From the IMG/VR virus record IMGVR_UViG_3300046010_000376, positions 1-23,702 of that record: a stretch of DNA of 23,702 bases, one strand, 5' to 3'. Made by a program: the position numbers and the translations under genes. Shown piece after piece: positions 4,861 to 19,209 of this stretch; position 1 is the first letter of the stretch, and every line of letters starts with the position of its first letter. The notes beneath the pieces were generated by a model that saw only the letters and a program-made list of their open reading frames with translations, was not told the DNA's origin and did no database searches. Source of the stretch: a virus.

Positions 4861-5289
4861 TCAGAGCGTCATGCGCACAAAAGTACAAGACTTATTGAAT
4901 CCAAACTTGGCCATGTAGAGGTTAGCCAATCTAGGCTGCGAGTAAGCATCAAGAAATTGTACATCGTTTGCACGTAGCCAGTCCAGAATTGGACTCCAGA
5001 ATGCAGCCTTGAATGACATAAGGTTCTTGCCAGCCATAGCCACTATATCAGCACCTTTCTTCCCATAGGTTGTATGGAACTGAATGGCCAAGACTGTAGA
5101 CAATCTCCCAAGATCAAAGCACGCGAAGACAACGACTTTATCTTCTTGACTTAGTTTATAAATGTCTTCCGCTGAAATATCAACGGCAACCTCGTTTGCT
5201 TCGCACGCTTTTGTGAACAATGGCTCCATCTTAGGCCATAGTTCAGTCACCCGTTCAGGAGTAAGCAATTCAATAGTCAGCCTACTCAC
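4861..5289 (-). CDS. Small GNAT-like protein in internal virion protein cluster
   Basis: 142 aa from GTG at 5289, preceded by GGGGTGG as a plausible SD; GTG at 5295 would add two residues. The start overlaps the end of the 433-aa gene by 8 nt. The sequence alternates strands and helices as in GCN5-type acetyltransferases: a central strand pair (VVVFACFDLG, then LSTVLAIQFHTTYG), a helix with MSFKAAFWSPILDWLRA, and a C-terminal LANLYMAKFGFNKSCTFVRM resembling the 'Y-x-x-x-GF' ending of GNAT enzymes. T7 gp13 (138 aa), at the same place before gp14, also looks GNAT-like, so this is probably its counterpart: a protein needed for assembly or ejection rather than a free enzyme. I cannot see a clear acetyl-CoA pyrophosphate loop (Q/RxxGxG/A), so catalytic activity is doubtful. 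Confidence 0.62.
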   Translation of the reverse strand: MSRLTIELLTPERVTELWPKMEPLFTKACEANEVAVDISAEDIYKLSQEDKVVVFACFDLGRLSTVLAIQFHTTYGKKGADIVAMAGKNLMSFKAAFWSPILDWLRANDVQFLDAYSQPRLANLYMAKFGFNKSCTFVRMTL

Positions 5290-6583
5290 GACCACCCCGA
5301 TACTTGGACACTAAGCTATCGAAGAACTCGGTGCCTTTTGCGCGAACAACTTCAGCCGGAATGACATACTCGCCGGTATGCGCCATGATCGGGACCGGTT
5401 CGCTCTTGGCTGGAAGCTCACCGCCTTTAGCCATCGACGGCATAGGCCCAACCTCAGCAGATGAGACACCACCCGTCTGAGTCGCTGCAGGCATGAGCGC
5501 CGGATTCTCAGCAACAGGTTGGCCCATCTGACCCTGCGGCTGCGGAACGCCACCTTGGGACGCCATCGCCTGACCGACGACAATAAGCGTGAACAGCAGA
5601 CCCGGATCGAACTGGGGGCTAATATCCTGCGGCGTAGCCAGACCCTGCTGGATAGCCACATTCCTAAGCTGCGGATACATATCAGGATTCTGCAACGCGA
5701 CCGTCGCCATCTGGACGATGGTGTTAAGTTCCTGCTGTGTCAATTCACCAGATTGCATGGCCTGTTGAATAGCCATCTGGATTTCCTGAACCTGACGTGG
5801 ATTGCGCTGCACGAACCGCTGCGCTTCCATCTGAATCTGCTGCGGGGACAACCCACCAGCAGACGGAGCAAGGCCCGGCTGCCCACCCGCAGGAGCAGGA
5901 GACGGAAGATCAGGGCGAATCGGAGCGCCACCAGCGCCAACCATGCCACCTTCTTGATAAGAAGGCATCGGCTGTGAAGAACCCATAGGCGTCATGGCCG
6001 TCGTGCTAAGAGCAGACGAGAGGCCCGCCGACGGCGGCTGCACCGGAGTCTGGATGGACCCCATGTTCAGAAGGCTTTCGAGCGCCGGAGGCAGGTCCAG
6101 CGAAGTGGTGTCCATAGGCTGGGGGGTCTGCATAGCCATCTGAGGTCCTTCCGAAGTAACGAGTCCGCCTTGCGCATATTTCTGATTAGCTGCAGGAGTC
6201 CATGGCGAGAATAAAACATTACCCGGCTCTACAGTAGTAAAATATCTTTTCAGAGCTTCCATACCCATGTTCTGAAGATTGGTTGCGCTAGGAGTAAATG
6301 TAGCAGCAGGACCATGAGAACCCCAGACCCCACCGACATTCCCGTTCACACCGCTGTAGATACTTTGGTTGGAGAACGTCGGATGATTGGGCTTTTTCCA
6401 TGTATCTGCCCCATGCCCATTAGGAGTAAACTGACCGCCGCTCTTCCAAAAATCCCGTATATCGTAGTCATATACATCGCGCTGCCGATTATTAGCCGTA
6501 GCCCAGTCTTGAAATGCTGCTTCTTCCTGTGGGGATAGCACAGTATTATACTTCGCAGAAAAGTCGTACGGGTCCGTAGGCAT
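5282..6583 (-). CDS. Virion structural protein with conserved N- and C-terminal modules
   Basis: 433 aa, ATG one base after the stop of the 134-aa gene. Residues 38-78 hold an aromatic segment (YDYDIRDFWKSGG, later KKPNHPTFSNQSIYSG) of a kind that recurs in many unrelated phage structural proteins. The middle is Pro/Gln/Met-rich and flexible, carrying KYAQGGLV and SYQEGGMV, then a helical block around residues 245-345 (QQIQMEAQRFVQRNPRQVQE onward). The last 47 residues contain AKGGELPAKSEPVPIMA and HTGEYVIPAEVVRAKGTEFF, resembling C-terminal parts of some tape-measure or internal proteins. It sits between the nozzle region and the GNAT-like gene, so I infer an internal or tail-associated virion protein. 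Exact role unknown. The modules look like two common virion pieces joined by a linker. Confidence 0.65.
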   Translation of the reverse strand: MPTDPYDFSAKYNTVLSPQEEAAFQDWATANNRQRDVYDYDIRDFWKSGGQFTPNGHGADTWKKPNHPTFSNQSIYSGVNGNVGGVWGSHGPAATFTPSATNLQNMGMEALKRYFTTVEPGNVLFSPWTPAANQKYAQGGLVTSEGPQMAMQTPQPMDTTSLDLPPALESLLNMGSIQTPVQPPSAGLSSALSTTAMTPMGSSQPMPSYQEGGMVGAGGAPIRPDLPSPAPAGGQPGLAPSAGGLSPQQIQMEAQRFVQRNPRQVQEIQMAIQQAMQSGELTQQELNTIVQMATVALQNPDMYPQLRNVAIQQGLATPQDISPQFDPGLLFTLIVVGQAMASQGGVPQPQGQMGQPVAENPALMPAATQTGGVSSAEVGPMPSMAKGGELPAKSEPVPIMAHTGEYVIPAEVVRAKGTEFFDSLVSKYRGGRE

Positions 6584-9225: not shown

Positions 9226-9378
9226 TTAGCAGGGCTTGGCGACTTTGCCACCAGCTTTCATGCTCATCATTTTTGACTTCTTGGTGGCTTTAGCTTTCGG
9301 CATCATGGCCTTGCTTTTCGTCACCATGCCGCCAGCTTTATAGCTCATCATCTTTTCAGACACAGACTTCTTCATCAT
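9226..9378 (-). CDS. Lys/Met-rich 50-aa peptide with GGMV motif
   Basis: 50 aa, ATG overlapping the o-spanin stop by 4 nt (ATGA) with GAGGG upstream. About 12 Lys and 10 Met residues give a strongly basic, unusual composition. It contains two related blocks, MMSYKAGGMVTKSK and MMSMKAGGKVAKPC. The first resembles EEYRKGGMVRKPKKKGC at the end of the 59-aa protein near 13110. No membrane segment or signal peptide is visible. Function unknown. Small peptides of this style appear in environmental phage genomes among virion genes, so a DNA-binding or minor virion role is possible. The overlap and SD support it being translated; the very small size keeps confidence moderate. Confidence 0.58.
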   Translation of the reverse strand: MMKKSVSEKMMSYKAGGMVTKSKAMMPKAKATKKSKMMSMKAGGKVAKPC

Positions 9379-11145: not shown

Positions 11146-11916
11146 CTATGCAAACTTAGGAAAATGAACTGCCACCATGCCACGCATATTAGCTAGATTG
11201 GCTCTTGCTCTACGCTCAGTTGTCTCAAATAGGCACTGCCGCGCATGGTAAGTGGCGAGTTCTCTGTCAGCCCAGACTACGTTAGGTAGGACAAGAAGCT
11301 CTTGGAGCGCTCTATGAATAATAGCACTCTCAAGTTCATCCATTATGATGCTATCCATACCGGAAGCATCGCGCTTTGGTTTCAAAGCGTAGAACATCCG
11401 TATGGTATAAGTCTTAGAGTTATCAGGTAGCGGGAGGACGACATACTTATCCGGTGTAATCTGGCATATAGAACGCGGCTCGGAGCCATCGGCAAGCACA
11501 GAATCCGGGTACGTTATCGTAGGCTGAGAATTAAATTGCTGCGTATTGAACGCACCCGTATTGAACGTGGTGCTGGGAACAAGGCTCCAAACAGTAGAGA
11601 CAGGCTGCCCACTATATATGTCAGCCCATTGAGGGTAATTCATAAGTGCTTGTTCTAGCGTCAGCTTTTCGAGCGGCATATCGTTCAGCATCGCATCGAA
11701 CAGAACATGCACATCCGCAGTCAGCGGCTTCCTATATGCGTACTCGAAGACTCCGGGTTCTAGATTATACGTAGGCTCGACGTACCTCCACATAAGGGTA
11801 CGCTCACACAGCTTAATAGCTGCCTCACGGATATGATCGAGGATCAATGGTTGTGGGCATCCCGGCACACTCGGACTAACTTTTGAGATTAGTGTTGTAA
11901 AGGCGCGATCAGCCAT
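11146..11916 (-). CDS. Connector/tail-like virion protein (unknown family)
   Basis: 256 aa; ATG overlaps the stop of the adaptor gene by one base (TAATG). N-terminal half is helical (HIREAAIKLCERTLMWRYVE at about 28-47), then beta-rich with Pro and Tyr (YVVLPLPDNSKTYTIRMFYA), and a C-terminal helix with RELATYHARQCLFETTERRA. The opening, a helix that counts as an 'insertion' region, and a beta domain with a final helix pair, resembles the plan of the preceding adaptor-type protein. It was probably built into the head-tail junction next to the 221-aa adaptor. This is inference from order and fold impression; I recognise no named function. Confidence 0.6.
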   Translation of the reverse strand: MADRAFTTLISKVSPSVPGCPQPLILDHIREAAIKLCERTLMWRYVEPTYNLEPGVFEYAYRKPLTADVHVLFDAMLNDMPLEKLTLEQALMNYPQWADIYSGQPVSTVWSLVPSTTFNTGAFNTQQFNSQPTITYPDSVLADGSEPRSICQITPDKYVVLPLPDNSKTYTIRMFYALKPKRDASGMDSIIMDELESAIIHRALQELLVLPNVVWADRELATYHARQCLFETTERRARANLANMRGMVAVHFPKFA

Positions 11917-12581
11917 TAGATCACCTCGCCTACAATTTGGTCTGTGCGCGACTGTTTCATGCCAGCAGCCTTAGTGTCAGTCACAGTGCGATTCTGTAGC
12001 GCAGTTCCGAGTTCACTCGTGAAAAGGTCAAGGAACAACTTAGCCCGCCCAGAGTTCACATGCTCATCATCAATAGACTCAGCTAAGAACACCGTGGCGT
12101 CCACGATAGCTGGCATGAAGCTGTCCGATGGCGAAGTAATCACATCAGTAAGCGCGTAATCCGGTGGTGTCTTAGCGTACTCGCCAACGAGTACAATTCC
12201 AGCGGAGGGGCGAGGATATAGGAAAAACCGTTCAGGGTTCTTAACATGCCGCATGAAGTTGACTGGAGTGCCAGAGGTCTCAGACATCCACGAGGGATTA
12301 CATCGAGCCATGGTCTCACGATCAACTTCAGTTATGGCCGCCCCATTTTTCACCTGAAAGATGTCGATCAAGCGCAGGGCATCAGAAGGGAGCGATTGAA
12401 CTGCGGTATCAGCAGTCGTGGAAATATCGACAATCTCCCCAAAGAGATCAGGGCGTAAGATCGACATCCTCTTAAGCGCTTGATTTATAAAGCCTAAGAG
12501 GTCTACGTCACTGTATCGTTGGGGTGTGTCAACATCCTGCAACAACTTGCGGACTTCGACTATGATACCTGCTGGCGTCAC
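11916..12581 (-). CDS. Head-tail adaptor (P22 gp4-like / tubular tail A-like)
   Basis: 221 aa starting with GTG at 12581, overlapping the previous stop as TAGTG. N-terminus MTPAGIIVEVRKLLQDV then YSDVDLLGFINQALKRMSIL and RPDLF is the hallmark of phage adaptor proteins, where a first helix bundle of this type (R/Y-x-D-x-x-L-x-x-x-x-N-x-A) docks on the portal. The central region is beta-rich (FFLYPRPSAGIVLVGEYA) and the C-terminal helices contain AIVDATVFLAESIDDEHVNS and FLDLFTSELGTALQNR. P22 gp4 (166 aa) and T7 gp11 (196 aa) are the functional counterparts. It connects portal to nozzle and seals the packaged head. Confidence 0.8.
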   Translation of the reverse strand: MTPAGIIVEVRKLLQDVDTPQRYSDVDLLGFINQALKRMSILRPDLFGEIVDISTTADTAVQSLPSDALRLIDIFQVKNGAAITEVDRETMARCNPSWMSETSGTPVNFMRHVKNPERFFLYPRPSAGIVLVGEYAKTPPDYALTDVITSPSDSFMPAIVDATVFLAESIDDEHVNSGRAKLFLDLFTSELGTALQNRTVTDTKAAGMKQSRTDQIVGEVI

Positions 12582-12937
12582 TACCCAAGTCTCCGCGTTG
12601 CTTCGTCATCTATGTCGGGATTACTATACCCCGGTTCTTCAGGGATGTCATCCGTATGGAGGTCAATCCCCTTACGTTTCCGCCCCTTACGAGTAGCCTT
12701 CACTACGGTCGGAACTTCTGCTGTCGCCTCAATAAGCTGCGCAACAGCGGCATCTAACTCTTCCGGCTCAGGCACCGGCTCTGCGAATCTGACCAACCGA
12801 TCTCGATGCGACTGCGTAAGAAACCGTTCAGGAAATGCAATTTCCTCAGTGACTTCCTCACACTTCGGGTTCTTCGCAAGAATGGAGTCCCATTCATAAA
12901 TGACTCCATTTGCTCTGTTTCGCAACCATCGAGTCAT
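12581..12937 (-). CDS. 118-aa hypothetical protein, acidic C-terminal half
   Basis: 118 aa; ATG overlaps the stop of the 58-aa gene (ATGA), and its own stop overlaps the adaptor GTG start. It opens MTRWLRNRANGVIYEWDSIL, resembling short phage proteins that begin with a 'basic-aromatic' strand pair, then a Pro/Glu-rich linker with EPVPEPEELDAAVAQLIEA, a KKR-type basic patch (KATRKGRKRKG) and an acidic end (DIPEEPGYSNPDIDDEATRR). Probably partly disordered. Function unknown; its position, coupled to the adaptor, suggests a late structural or assembly role. Confidence 0.55.
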   Translation of the reverse strand: MTRWLRNRANGVIYEWDSILAKNPKCEEVTEEIAFPERFLTQSHRDRLVRFAEPVPEPEELDAAVAQLIEATAEVPTVVKATRKGRKRKGIDLHTDDIPEEPGYSNPDIDDEATRRLG

Positions 12938-13110
12938 TTGCCTAGCTTTCTAAGAGTTTGCGCCAGACGAGCGCGTTTACCAGTGACGCCGGGTTTCTTA
13001 GCCGCAGCGGCCAAGGCTTTAGCGGGAATCTTTTCATCCTTCTTCGCGCCCATCTCTTTGCGAAGCGCGCCGGGTTTTTTGATCGCCTTCTGAATCCACT
13101 TCTCGGCCAT
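12934..13110 (-). CDS. 58-aa basic helical protein (unknown)
   Basis: 58 aa from the ATG at 13110, which shares its A with the TGA of the 59-aa gene; an in-frame ATG three codons up would lie within that gene. Lys, Arg and Ala dominate: MAEKWIQKAIKKPGALRKEM, then KALAAAAKKPGVTGKRARLA, ending TLRKLGK. 'KKPGALRK' and 'KKPGVTGKRARLA' look like two copies of one helix unit. No membrane or signal sequence. Short proteins like this (WIQKAI.KPGALR) are common in environmental phages and are usually hypothetical. A nucleic-acid-binding role would fit the charge but is not shown. Confidence 0.62.
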   Translation of the reverse strand: MAEKWIQKAIKKPGALRKEMGAKKDEKIPAKALAAAAKKPGVTGKRARLAQTLRKLGK

Positions 13111-13289
13111 CACTTGCATCCCTTCTTCTTAGGTTTGCGGACCATACCGCCTTTGCGGTATTCTTCCATGTCGGCGTCTTCGCAGCCGCCGCGCATCTTC
13201 TTGCCTTTACCCTTGCCGTTAGACTCTTTCTTCATAACAACAAGCATCACAGCCGGAGCCTTCATCTTCTTAGTCGGAGCCTTAGCCAT
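13110..13289 (-). CDS. 59-aa Lys-rich peptide with GGC and GGMV motifs
   Basis: 59 aa, ATG with AAGGA about 9 nt upstream, overlapping the previous stop by 8 nt (the TAA lies inside the codons for Met-Ala-Lys). Sequence begins MAKAPTKKMKAPAVMLVVM, then a basic stretch (KKESNGKGKGKKMRGGCED) and an ending with MEEYRKGGMVRKPKKKGCK. The end resembles SYKAGGMVTKSK in the 50-aa peptide at 9226. Two Cys (35 and 58) are present. No fold or function recognised. Expression is supported by the SD and by one-base coupling to the next gene. Confidence 0.6.
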   Translation of the reverse strand: MAKAPTKKMKAPAVMLVVMKKESNGKGKGKKMRGGCEDADMEEYRKGGMVRKPKKKGCK

Positions 13290-13524
13290 TCTTCGGTCCT
13301 TTCCGTTTACCAGACGGTGTAACCGGCCAAGACTTTCTAGCCGGTCCTGTCTTTTTAGAAGCCATCGCGCGCTTCTCTGAAGCCGTCATTTTCGTCGCAG
13401 CCGCAGCCGGACGACACGCCGGATATCCTCGCTTATCGGCCTTACCAGAACGGCCACAGGGCTTGCCGGTCTTCACATCGACCCACTTTTCCCCGAACCA
13501 CTTTCCGAGGCCACCCTTAGCCAC
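13282..13524 (-). CDS. 80-aa basic protein with KGGLGKWF-EKWVDVKTGKPCGRS motif
   Basis: 80 aa starting with GTG at 13524, 3 nt after the SD-like GGGTGAA and overlapping the previous stop by 8 nt. Its first 30 residues (MAKGGLGKWFGEKWVDVKTG, then KPCGRSGKADKRGYPACRPA) form a compact motif that I know from small phage and environmental virus proteins of unknown function. The two Cys (24 and 38) with nearby basic residues could bind a metal, but no full zinc ligand set is visible. The rest is Lys/Ala-rich (MTASEKRAMASKKTGPARKS) ending in a VTPSGKRKGPKNG tail. Very basic; DNA binding or minor virion component is possible. Confidence 0.66.
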   Translation of the reverse strand: MAKGGLGKWFGEKWVDVKTGKPCGRSGKADKRGYPACRPAAAATKMTASEKRAMASKKTGPARKSWPVTPSGKRKGPKNG

Positions 13525-13687
13525 GCTTCACCCGATTATCTGTACCAGACCAAGTACCGCCACGACTTTTATATTCTTTCGCTGCCCACGCATTAGCGTA
13601 TGCACTTGGGTAAACCTTAAACTTCTTCTTGGCTTCAGCTTTTACGCGAGACCATAGAGCAGCGTTGTTCGGTTTAGATGCAGCCAT
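13517..13687 (-). CDS. 56-aa basic protein, YPSAYAN-KEYK-GG family
   Basis: 56 aa from ATG at 13687, with GGAA 8 nt upstream; the in-frame ATG at 13738 would add 17 hydrophobic residues overlapping the preceding gene and lacks an SD. Sequence: MAASKPNNAALWSRVKAEAK then KKFKVYPSAYANAWAAKEYK and SRGGTWSG. The 'VYPSAYAN.W..KEYK.RGG' pattern is a conserved small-protein motif seen in phages and some large DNA viruses; no biochemical function is established that I can cite. Basic and compact, probably a single helix pair. It lies between two other basic genes. Confidence 0.66.
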   Translation of the reverse strand: MAASKPNNAALWSRVKAEAKKKFKVYPSAYANAWAAKEYKSRGGTWSGTDNRVKRG

Positions 13688-13688
13688 A

Positions 13689-13943
13689 TCAGCAATTCCA
13701 AGCGCGAAGAGATTTATTAATCCGTGAGTTCGGATCATTGGCTGTCTTGGCGCTTGTCAGTTTTTTCTTCATACCTTTCATACGGGCACAAAAAGAATCA
13801 CGGCGTGGACCACCTTCAGGCTGCGGTGCTTTCAATCCGGGCTTACCCGGATTAGCAGCATTATAGGAAGCACGACCCTTGGCGTTCAAACCGCCTTTAG
13901 GATTCTTACCTTCCTTGCGCGTCCATGCGGGAGTCTTGGGCAT
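13689..13943 (-). CDS. 84-aa basic protein, GGLNAKGRASYN family
   Basis: 84 aa; ATG shares its A with the stop of the fibre gene (TAATG). The motif blocks are TPAWTRKEGKNPKGGLNAKG, RASYNAANPG, KAPQPEGGPRRDSFCARMKG and SAKTANDPNSRINKSLRAWN. This ordered set of blocks belongs to a widespread small phage family usually labelled a domain of unknown function; I do not commit to an accession. Cys52 and the final Cys84 are the only cysteines. Strongly basic with no membrane segment. Its place right after fibre genes and before further basic genes suggests a virion or assembly function, not shown. Confidence 0.7.
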   Translation of the reverse strand: MPKTPAWTRKEGKNPKGGLNAKGRASYNAANPGKPGLKAPQPEGGPRRDSFCARMKGMKKKLTSAKTANDPNSRINKSLRAWNC

Positions 13944-18282: not shown

Positions 18283-19209
18283 TTACGAGAACTGAACAAC
18301 GGCGGTCGAAAGCGCTTCCGGCTTGACCACTTTATAGCCGTAGACCTGCAGGCCACGGATGATGTCACCAAACGTCGTCTCCGAGCGAATGGTCTCCATC
18401 TCGGTCATCTGTGACGCAAAGGTGAAGCCCATCTTATGACCAGCGATGATGTTGGTCTTACCGCTGCTGAGCTTCAGATTGTGCGACACGTAGAGCGTGA
18501 AGCGATCAATCATGCCAAGGCGACCGTTGCGAATCGGAGAAGTCGAATCGCCCGTGAGCGAAGCATCCTTCAGTTCCGACTTCTTAATCAAACCAGCCAT
18601 ACGGGCGGGGATGACCAGATAACGATCCTGCTCAGGAACATTGGCCTCGTCGAGGACGGTGCCGAGGTCAACGACAAGGTCGATCACCGAGGTGGTGCCG
18701 CCAGAGCCGTCTTTCGTAACCGTCAGCGGCGAACCGGTCGTGCCGAGGTTGAACGCAGCCGACTTAGCACCGGCAGTCGCGCCCTGATTGTCGGCGGAGA
18801 TATCCGTCAGCATATCAGTCAGAACACGCTGGTCGATCTTGATCTTCATCTGCTCGGAAGCATCTTTAGACCACATATCCATCAGCTTAACGTCAGCCTG
18901 AACGCGGTCAATATCGTCTTCAACGCAGGCGAAGTACTCGCCCTTGTCGATGAGAAGCTGGACCTTCGGCTTGTCGGGGTTCTCAACCACGAGGCTCTGA
19001 CCCTTGACGTAATCGCGGATCGTGATGTTCGGGATCGTACGGATATTAACCGTATCGCCCTGACCCTTGATTTCGCCTTCGTAGTCAGTATTGGCGATGG
19101 CCGCAAGGACCGTCGCATCGTAGAAATTTTCGATCAGTTTACCCGACCAAATCTCGGGGATGAAGTTCCCCGAATAATTCGGACGGCCCGGAGAGACAGG
19201 ATAAGACAT
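18283..19209 (-). CDS. Major capsid protein, HK97-fold
   Basis: 308 aa, ATG with GGAG 7 nt upstream. N-terminus MSYPVSPGRPNYSGNFIPEI is followed by WSGKLIENFYDATVLAAIAN and GQGDTVNIRTIPNITIRDYV: the N-arm, spine helix and E-loop pattern of HK97-fold coat proteins. RVLTDMLTDISADNQGATAG and RYLVIPARMAGLIKKSELKD belong to the P- and A-domains. Shorter than T7 gp10A (345) and P22 coat (430), with no extra insertion domain seen. It lies right after the scaffold gene, as expected for procapsid assembly. Confidence 0.92.
   Translation of the reverse strand: MSYPVSPGRPNYSGNFIPEIWSGKLIENFYDATVLAAIANTDYEGEIKGQGDTVNIRTIPNITIRDYVKGQSLVVENPDKPKVQLLIDKGEYFACVEDDIDRVQADVKLMDMWSKDASEQMKIKIDQRVLTDMLTDISADNQGATAGAKSAAFNLGTTGSPLTVTKDGSGGTTSVIDLVVDLGTVLDEANVPEQDRYLVIPARMAGLIKKSELKDASLTGDSTSPIRNGRLGMIDRFTLYVSHNLKLSSGKTNIIAGHKMGFTFASQMTEMETIRSETTFGDIIRGLQVYGYKVVKPEALSTAVVQFS

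Follow-up and report, generated by a model that had tools for sequence, protein, structure and literature searches.

The proteins that phages T7 and P22 eject into the host are products of the structural module and travel inside the head; they are large, and form an internal core or channel. In phage T4, each of the basic internal proteins is packed at about 300 copies per head, and a 10-residue capsid-targeting sequence (CTS), with targeting at positions 4 and 7 and processing at positions 8 and 10, is removed by gp21 cleavage after Glu (PMC9026906, PMC5694885). The lysines of the T4 internal proteins contact DNA phosphates (PMC3012670). Here I describe a run of five small basic genes, labeled g1 to g5, in a 23.7 kb viral contig (IMG/VR record IMGVR_UViG_3300046010_000376, positions 1 to 23,702; this whole stretch is hereafter referred to as the window). 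I favor, with somewhat more confidence than doubt, the explanation that g1–g5 encode small modular basic proteins that lie inside the phage head with the DNA, and work like the T4 internal proteins.

The likeness to T4 IPI, IPII and IPIII is that all are small, basic, accessory and, probably for the window proteins, head-associated, and the T4-like phage versions of the modules also have a leader of ∼10 residues, aromatic residues near positions 4 and 7, and a Glu at the cut. However, no sequence relation between the T4 proteins and g1–g5 was recognised, T4-like cyanophages string several modules in one precursor, and leader and cleavage site are both missing from the window genes. The T4 internal proteins are also not highly conserved, in contrast to the modules described here, which are highly conserved across unrelated phages and hosts. 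The T7 and P22 ejection proteins are large, where the window modules are basic and span 56–84 amino acids, and no similarity was seen. Among open-licence papers, I found none linking cyanophage GC119, DUF6321 or DUF5872 to internal head proteins.

The five genes occupy positions 12934–13943 on the minus strand. The first, g1 (13689–13943, 84 amino acids), is a DUF6321 protein containing GGLNAKGRASYN, RRDSFCARM and LRAWNC in that order. It is followed by g2 (13517–13687, 56 amino acids), which carries the YPSAYAN-AAKEYK module and corresponds to the N-terminal half of DUF5872, and by g3 (13282–13524, 80 amino acids, GTG start), which carries the KGGLGKWFGEKWVDV...PCGR...YPACRP module and corresponds to the C-terminal half. 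Then come the Lys-rich g4 (13110–13289, 59 amino acids, with EEYRKGGMVRKPKKK), which has a narrow distribution, and g5 (12934–13110, 58 amino acids), with the module W-I-Q-x-A-I-K-K-P-G-A-L...IPAK.LA.AAK.PG..G.RARLA.TL. An earlier reading made from the sequence alone (the sequence-only reading) had given exactly these sizes, and the three motifs that it quoted are all found, and conserved among homologues. It described overlaps or 1-nt gaps, in agreement with the spacings of -1, +1, -8, -8 and -1 nt from the upstream fibre gene through g5. Its interval for the five genes, 12581–13943, was too wide, since this also covers a sixth gene (12581–12937, 118 amino acids) that is acidic (isoelectric point 5.0), sits between the basic run and the adaptor gene, and is not part of the set.

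All five proteins are Lys/Arg-rich and basic, as previously stated, with isoelectric points of 10.2–11.0, a net charge of +10 to +17 each, and a K+R content of 23–32%. The low D+E content (5–10%) fits the near-absence of acidic stretches that had been claimed, except for a short acidic patch in g4 (CEDADMEE). The median ratio of non-synonymous to synonymous substitution (dN/dS) is 0.04 for g1, the lowest of the run, 0.09 for g2, 0.08 for g3, 0.11 for g4 (resting on 3 pairs) and 0.10 for g5, next to 0.10 for the major capsid protein. The five genes are thus under strong purifying selection, and are genuine genes and not chance open reading frames (ORFs). A longer, 73-residue g2 starting at an upstream ATG (13738) was rejected, as homologues begin at the Met of the 56-residue form.

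The g1 protein is a full-length member of DUF6321 (Pfam PF19846), matching positions 1–72 of the 72-position profile with 71.5 bits against a cut-off of 28.5 (E 9e-20). For g2 and g3, the matches are to separate parts of the 116-position DUF5872 profile (Pfam PF19197): positions 1–39 for g2 (29.4 bits) and positions 53–101 for g3 (28.2 bits), against a cut-off of 27.5. No window gene holds both halves; they are split over two adjacent, overlapping genes, whereas in the T4-like polyproteins described below they occur in reversed order with a linker. A fused g2+g3 ORF, resembling the giant-virus DUF5872 protein, was not found in the 160 related loci scanned, with no giant-virus sequence inspected directly. 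The giant alga virus CpV-BQ1 is also on record as having DUF5872 (PMC12085832). When g1, g2, g3 and g5 were compared with the sequences of solved structures, no relatives emerged, and the structural model for g3 is of low confidence, with a mean predicted local distance difference test score (pLDDT) of 65.6. No match was found for g4 in Pfam or PHROG, and its homologues are confined to 8 loci, including the window itself. In contrast, g5 has ∼35 relatives in the fetched loci, is widespread in freshwater viral contigs, and is identical at 36 of 57 positions to gp44 of the Pelagibacter phage HTVC027P.

EF-hand/dockerin-like Ca-binding loops (for example FPDLTGDGKVTQADILKGRGV) are fused to some g5 relatives, or occur as a separate small basic gene within the set (L006:7743-7868 and L475:2190-2456; also loci L029, L049, L051, L058 and L088). 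In P-SCSP2, the separate gene matches EF-hand_5 with an E of 9e-6, slightly under the cut-off.

In T4-like cyanophages, the modules are found in one polypeptide, usually encoded between TerS (gp16) and TerL (gp17). Their order is a g3-like module (LRDWF...PCA...PKC), a g2-like module (WPSAYASG/YPSAYAN), a CWxGY...C module, and DUF6321 at the C-terminus, with some of these polyproteins holding fewer than four modules. In PHROGs, too, DUF6321 sits at the far C-terminal end of proteins that can be as long as 928 amino acids. Local alignment of the window proteins to the polyproteins gives z-scores of 15–47 for g1, 23–25 for g2 and 6–7 for g3, the last reflecting a weak but significant similarity to the LRDWF module (z 6.4–6.8). 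Over 78 amino acids, g1 is 75–78% identical to the C-terminus of the S-BM3, S-SCSM1, Bellamy and L248 polyproteins, and it is 61% identical to Syn9 gp114; 29 of 44 positions are identical between g2 and residues 163–206 of the S-BM3 GC119 protein. The sequence-only reading had not recognised g2 and g3 as the halves of one family, or that the set also occurs as a polyprotein.

The polyprotein corresponds to the cyanophage gene cluster T4-GC119, previously called no more than hypothetical and placed in a carbon-metabolism cassette (PMC3037559). It shares with the window a DUF6321 domain, at its C-terminus, but is one protein where the window has separate genes. In the papers found, neither its modular, apparently cleaved architecture nor the separate-gene form is mentioned. 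The AlphaFold2 model of the fused protein consists of small folded beads (pLDDT 70–86) strung on disordered linkers, with a predicted template-modeling score of 0.25. A Foldseek search with this model identified no significant fold; all matches had E > 1, most of them being to alpha-defensins over ∼24 residues, and were taken as chance.

The linkers that precede DUF6321 in T4-like phages are otherwise unconserved, but the residue adjoining the domain is nearly always Glu. Within the 5 residues before A-W, a phi-x-E motif is present in 32 of 43 redundancy-reduced linkers. Control windows of the same size further upstream gave 1.6 on average and 5 at most, and none of 10,000 shuffles reached the observed count. 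The context is like that of the sites cut by gp21, the T4 prohead protease. No Glu precedes A-W in standalone DUF6321 proteins, including window g1 (MPKTPAW); these proteins begin where the cleaved form would begin. Because the standalone forms do not have the Glu, and it lies nearer to or farther from the Trp by 1–2 residues, I rejected the possibility that it is part of the DUF6321 fold. The window g1 would match the C-terminal domain of the polyprotein in its mature form, after cleavage.

A CTS-like leader is found at the N-terminus of 15 of the 17 short (under 200 amino acids) T4-like DUF6321 ORFs (for example MKNYKEFKELAE followed by A, and MKTFKQFCIDLDE followed by G), and in 10 of 740 other ORFs, a contrast that is descriptive because the pattern was written after inspection of the sequences, although the T4 rule is independent of them. 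Nearly all of these 10 ORFs belong to the neighboring gene family. In T4-like cyanophages, the next gene after DUF6321 (MKSFKQFLSESxNIxGDFNGTL...; L168:4240-4560, L313:8312-8629, and loci in L192-L256) also possesses a CTS-like leader. The cyanophage gp16–gp17 interval looks like an internal-protein locus. One of these cyanophages, S-SM1, encodes gp21.

Published proteomes place two fused homologues in virions. The S-SCSM1 protein gp029, which has all four modules, is tagged as a virion protein, and the tags of that record appear to follow a 45-protein mass spectrometry proteome (PMC9602691). S-CREM2 gp137, which possesses DUF6321 at residues 415–488 (3.5e-10), is represented in the virion proteome by 4 unique peptides that cover 4.1% of it (PMC10665884). 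Its neighbor gp136, which starts with MQTFSMFFSE, was detected with 8 unique peptides (PMC10665884). Presence in the virion, one of the checks named by the sequence-only reading, is supported to this extent, with the proteins unreported in two other proteomes (see below).

Three of the five proteins recur in many phages of lakes and oceans, either from separate neighboring genes or joined in one long protein, and the joined form looks cut inside the head; they are therefore probably packed with the DNA. This explanation draws on observed homology, recurrence of the set, junction and leader motifs and strong constraint, together with the published virion presence of the two fused homologues; from these I infer cleavage itself, packaging by the window phage, DNA contact, ejection, and any role after it. 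In T4-like cyanophages, the modules would be made as one precursor or as a short CTS-tagged protein, which would be recruited to the prohead core, where a gp21-type prohead protease would cut after Glu and free them. The window phage, like other small phages in which no leader is seen, has the modules as separate genes of the late head/tail operon, each starting at the mature end. Inside the head, the most likely arrangement would be that the modules run along the packaged DNA and neutralise part of its charge, and they may leave the head together with the DNA at ejection. That they are so well conserved from host to host favors a partner that is universal, for example DNA, over a fast-evolving host target. 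The sequence-only reading had offered DNA-condensing virion peptides, factors injected into the host, or assembly aids; this is partly supported, with the protease-site and targeting-peptide evidence pointing to the head interior.

Several observations weigh against placing these proteins in the head with the DNA. The window genes possess neither an N-terminal capsid-targeting sequence (g1 to g5 start with MPKTPAW, MAASKPN, MAKGGLG, MAKAPTK and MAEKWIQ) nor a phi-x-E prohead-protease site; both being absent on inspection, I do not class them as CTS internal proteins. The leader pattern having been defined after the fact counts on the same side. For DNA binding, which the charge would suggest, the structure searches gave no solved relative and no fold match. 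The gp137 peptides of S-CREM2 may lie outside the DUF6321 part, given the low coverage. S-SZBM1_192, which has the leader MKTFKQYITE followed by DUF6321, is missing among the 30 virion proteins detected in that phage, and the GC119 protein of S-SM1 is called hypothetical, not structural, though the S-SM1 virion was analysed. Small Lys/Arg-rich peptides are readily lost in tryptic workflows, which is a possible reason for such non-detection, but not evidence of presence. Lastly, the whole basic set is absent from the complete Rhizobium phage TM3_14A, the one member examined of the RHph_TM3_14A group of Rhizobium soil phages, to which the window capsid protein (18283–19209) is 54% identical. Because a phage with this related capsid protein does without it, the capsid lineage seems to carry the set as an accessory, and this lowered the possibility that it is an essential assembly factor.

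Recurrence of the set, another check that had been named, is strong. I counted it in contigs fetched with g1 or g3, and then in 160 further loci from more distant queries. In the former, g2 is followed by g3, usually overlapping, in 83 of 85 g3 loci, and g1 lies at most 2.5 kb upstream in 38 of the 57 loci with enough upstream DNA. In the 160 further loci, the prevailing arrangement is g2+g3 accompanied by g1 or a substitute: g1 is upstream in 23 and downstream in 19, and a different basic family, RFG, is upstream in 52. RFG (RFG...RRxSFxARH...AxYWxxKxW, ∼90–100 amino acids) replaces g1 directly upstream of g2 (L007:1832-2116, and ∼55 loci among L314-L393); it has no Pfam match, and has in common with DUF6321 the motif R-R-x-S-F-x-A-R. 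DUF6321 itself was found in 537 of 50,697 phage records, mainly cyanophages and pelagiphages, and in none of 14 well-known control genomes. A scan of GTDB contigs yielded 50 loci, mostly in metagenome-assembled genomes, which are probably phage-derived contigs.

In some loci, the set is found apart from the structural genes of the window: L052, L123 and L164 have g1 at 92–95% identity, and L104, L123 and L164 have g2 and g3 at 66–81% identity, with no window capsid, portal or adaptor gene recognised. In the loci with g1 at 92–95% identity, a weak match to the fibre was the one trace of the window structural genes that was recognised. This pattern suggests that the set has passed between unrelated phages. 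Such mobility, together with the presence of the modules in phages of many hosts and the absence of the set from a structural relative, would suit effectors that are carried in the head but have their main task in the new host, such as anti-restriction or takeover of the nucleoid or ribosome; CTS-bearing T4 internal proteins indeed include IPI, a restriction-enzyme inhibitor, and Alt (PMC9026906, PMC3012670). However, arms-race proteins diverge fast, yet g1 is the most constrained of the run, and between a podovirus-like phage of fresh water and marine cyanobacterial myoviruses it is still ∼75% identical. The target would have to be a universal one, for example DNA or the ribosome. I consider this explanation unlikely.

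The position of the genes bears on a further explanation, that the proteins are assembly or packaging aids, which act on the prohead or terminase while the head is being filled and are present in the virion incidentally or not at all. The genes adjoin TerS/TerL in T4-like phages and, as g2+g3, in C72C1 and CRP-2, and g2, g3 and g1 lie between the scaffold and capsid genes in the Prochlorococcus phage P-SCSP2. In HTVC027P, g5-, g2-, g3- and g1-like genes and three more small basic genes form one run just before the probable head genes. But position relative to the structural genes differs widely, purified virions contain the fused homologues, and a phage with a related capsid manages without the set, making a role restricted to assembly distinctly improbable. 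That the proteins are intracellular regulators, late-acting and binding nucleic acid or ribosomes, which are never packaged and whose virion detections are carry-over, is very unlikely: several virion proteomes do not list them, and for S-SCSM1 and S-CREM2 the authors caution that some virion-associated proteins may be carry-over, but in T4-like phages the CTS-like leaders, and the Glu junctions at the edge of the module, would be purposeless, and the genes sit in late structural operons.

A wider form of the internal-protein explanation, which I put forward tentatively and think possible though not probable, is that g1–g5 belong to a transferable, nucleoid-like virion set of aquatic tailed phages of any morphotype, partly common to giant algal viruses through DUF5872, made as a cleaved polyprotein where a protease is present and as an overlapping gene cluster where it is not, and organising the packaged DNA. 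DUF6321 had no assigned function; the junction motifs, leaders and proteomes tie it to the head interior, and DUF6321, both DUF5872 halves and the CWxGY module become one testable system. The idea of T4 internal proteins, variable as these are in T4 relatives, would also extend to a conserved set common to unrelated aquatic phages.

In the window, the run is part of a podovirus-like structural module on the minus strand. Its order is SU10-type portal, scaffold-like protein, HK97-type capsid protein, two tail fibre/spike genes, the five basic genes, the acidic gene, and an SU10-type adaptor (11916–12581), beyond which lie more tail genes, an M15 endolysin and internal-virion-like proteins. A short motif, K/Y-x-x-G-G-M/x-V, is repeated in small basic proteins and in a 433-residue tail protein, in the window (9226–9378, 5282–6583 and 13110–13289, the last being g4) and in related phages (L007:2541-2855, L475:3046-3384).

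Two database entries for DUF6321 genes were also observed. Synechococcus phage MinM2 (L176:5001-5246) encodes a clear DUF6321 protein, 83% identical to g1, under the GenBank label ‘RecA-like recombination protein’, which looks like a misannotation. In S-CBP4 (NC_025464; L178:5953-6204), the DUF6321 gene is intact but missing from the RefSeq annotation.

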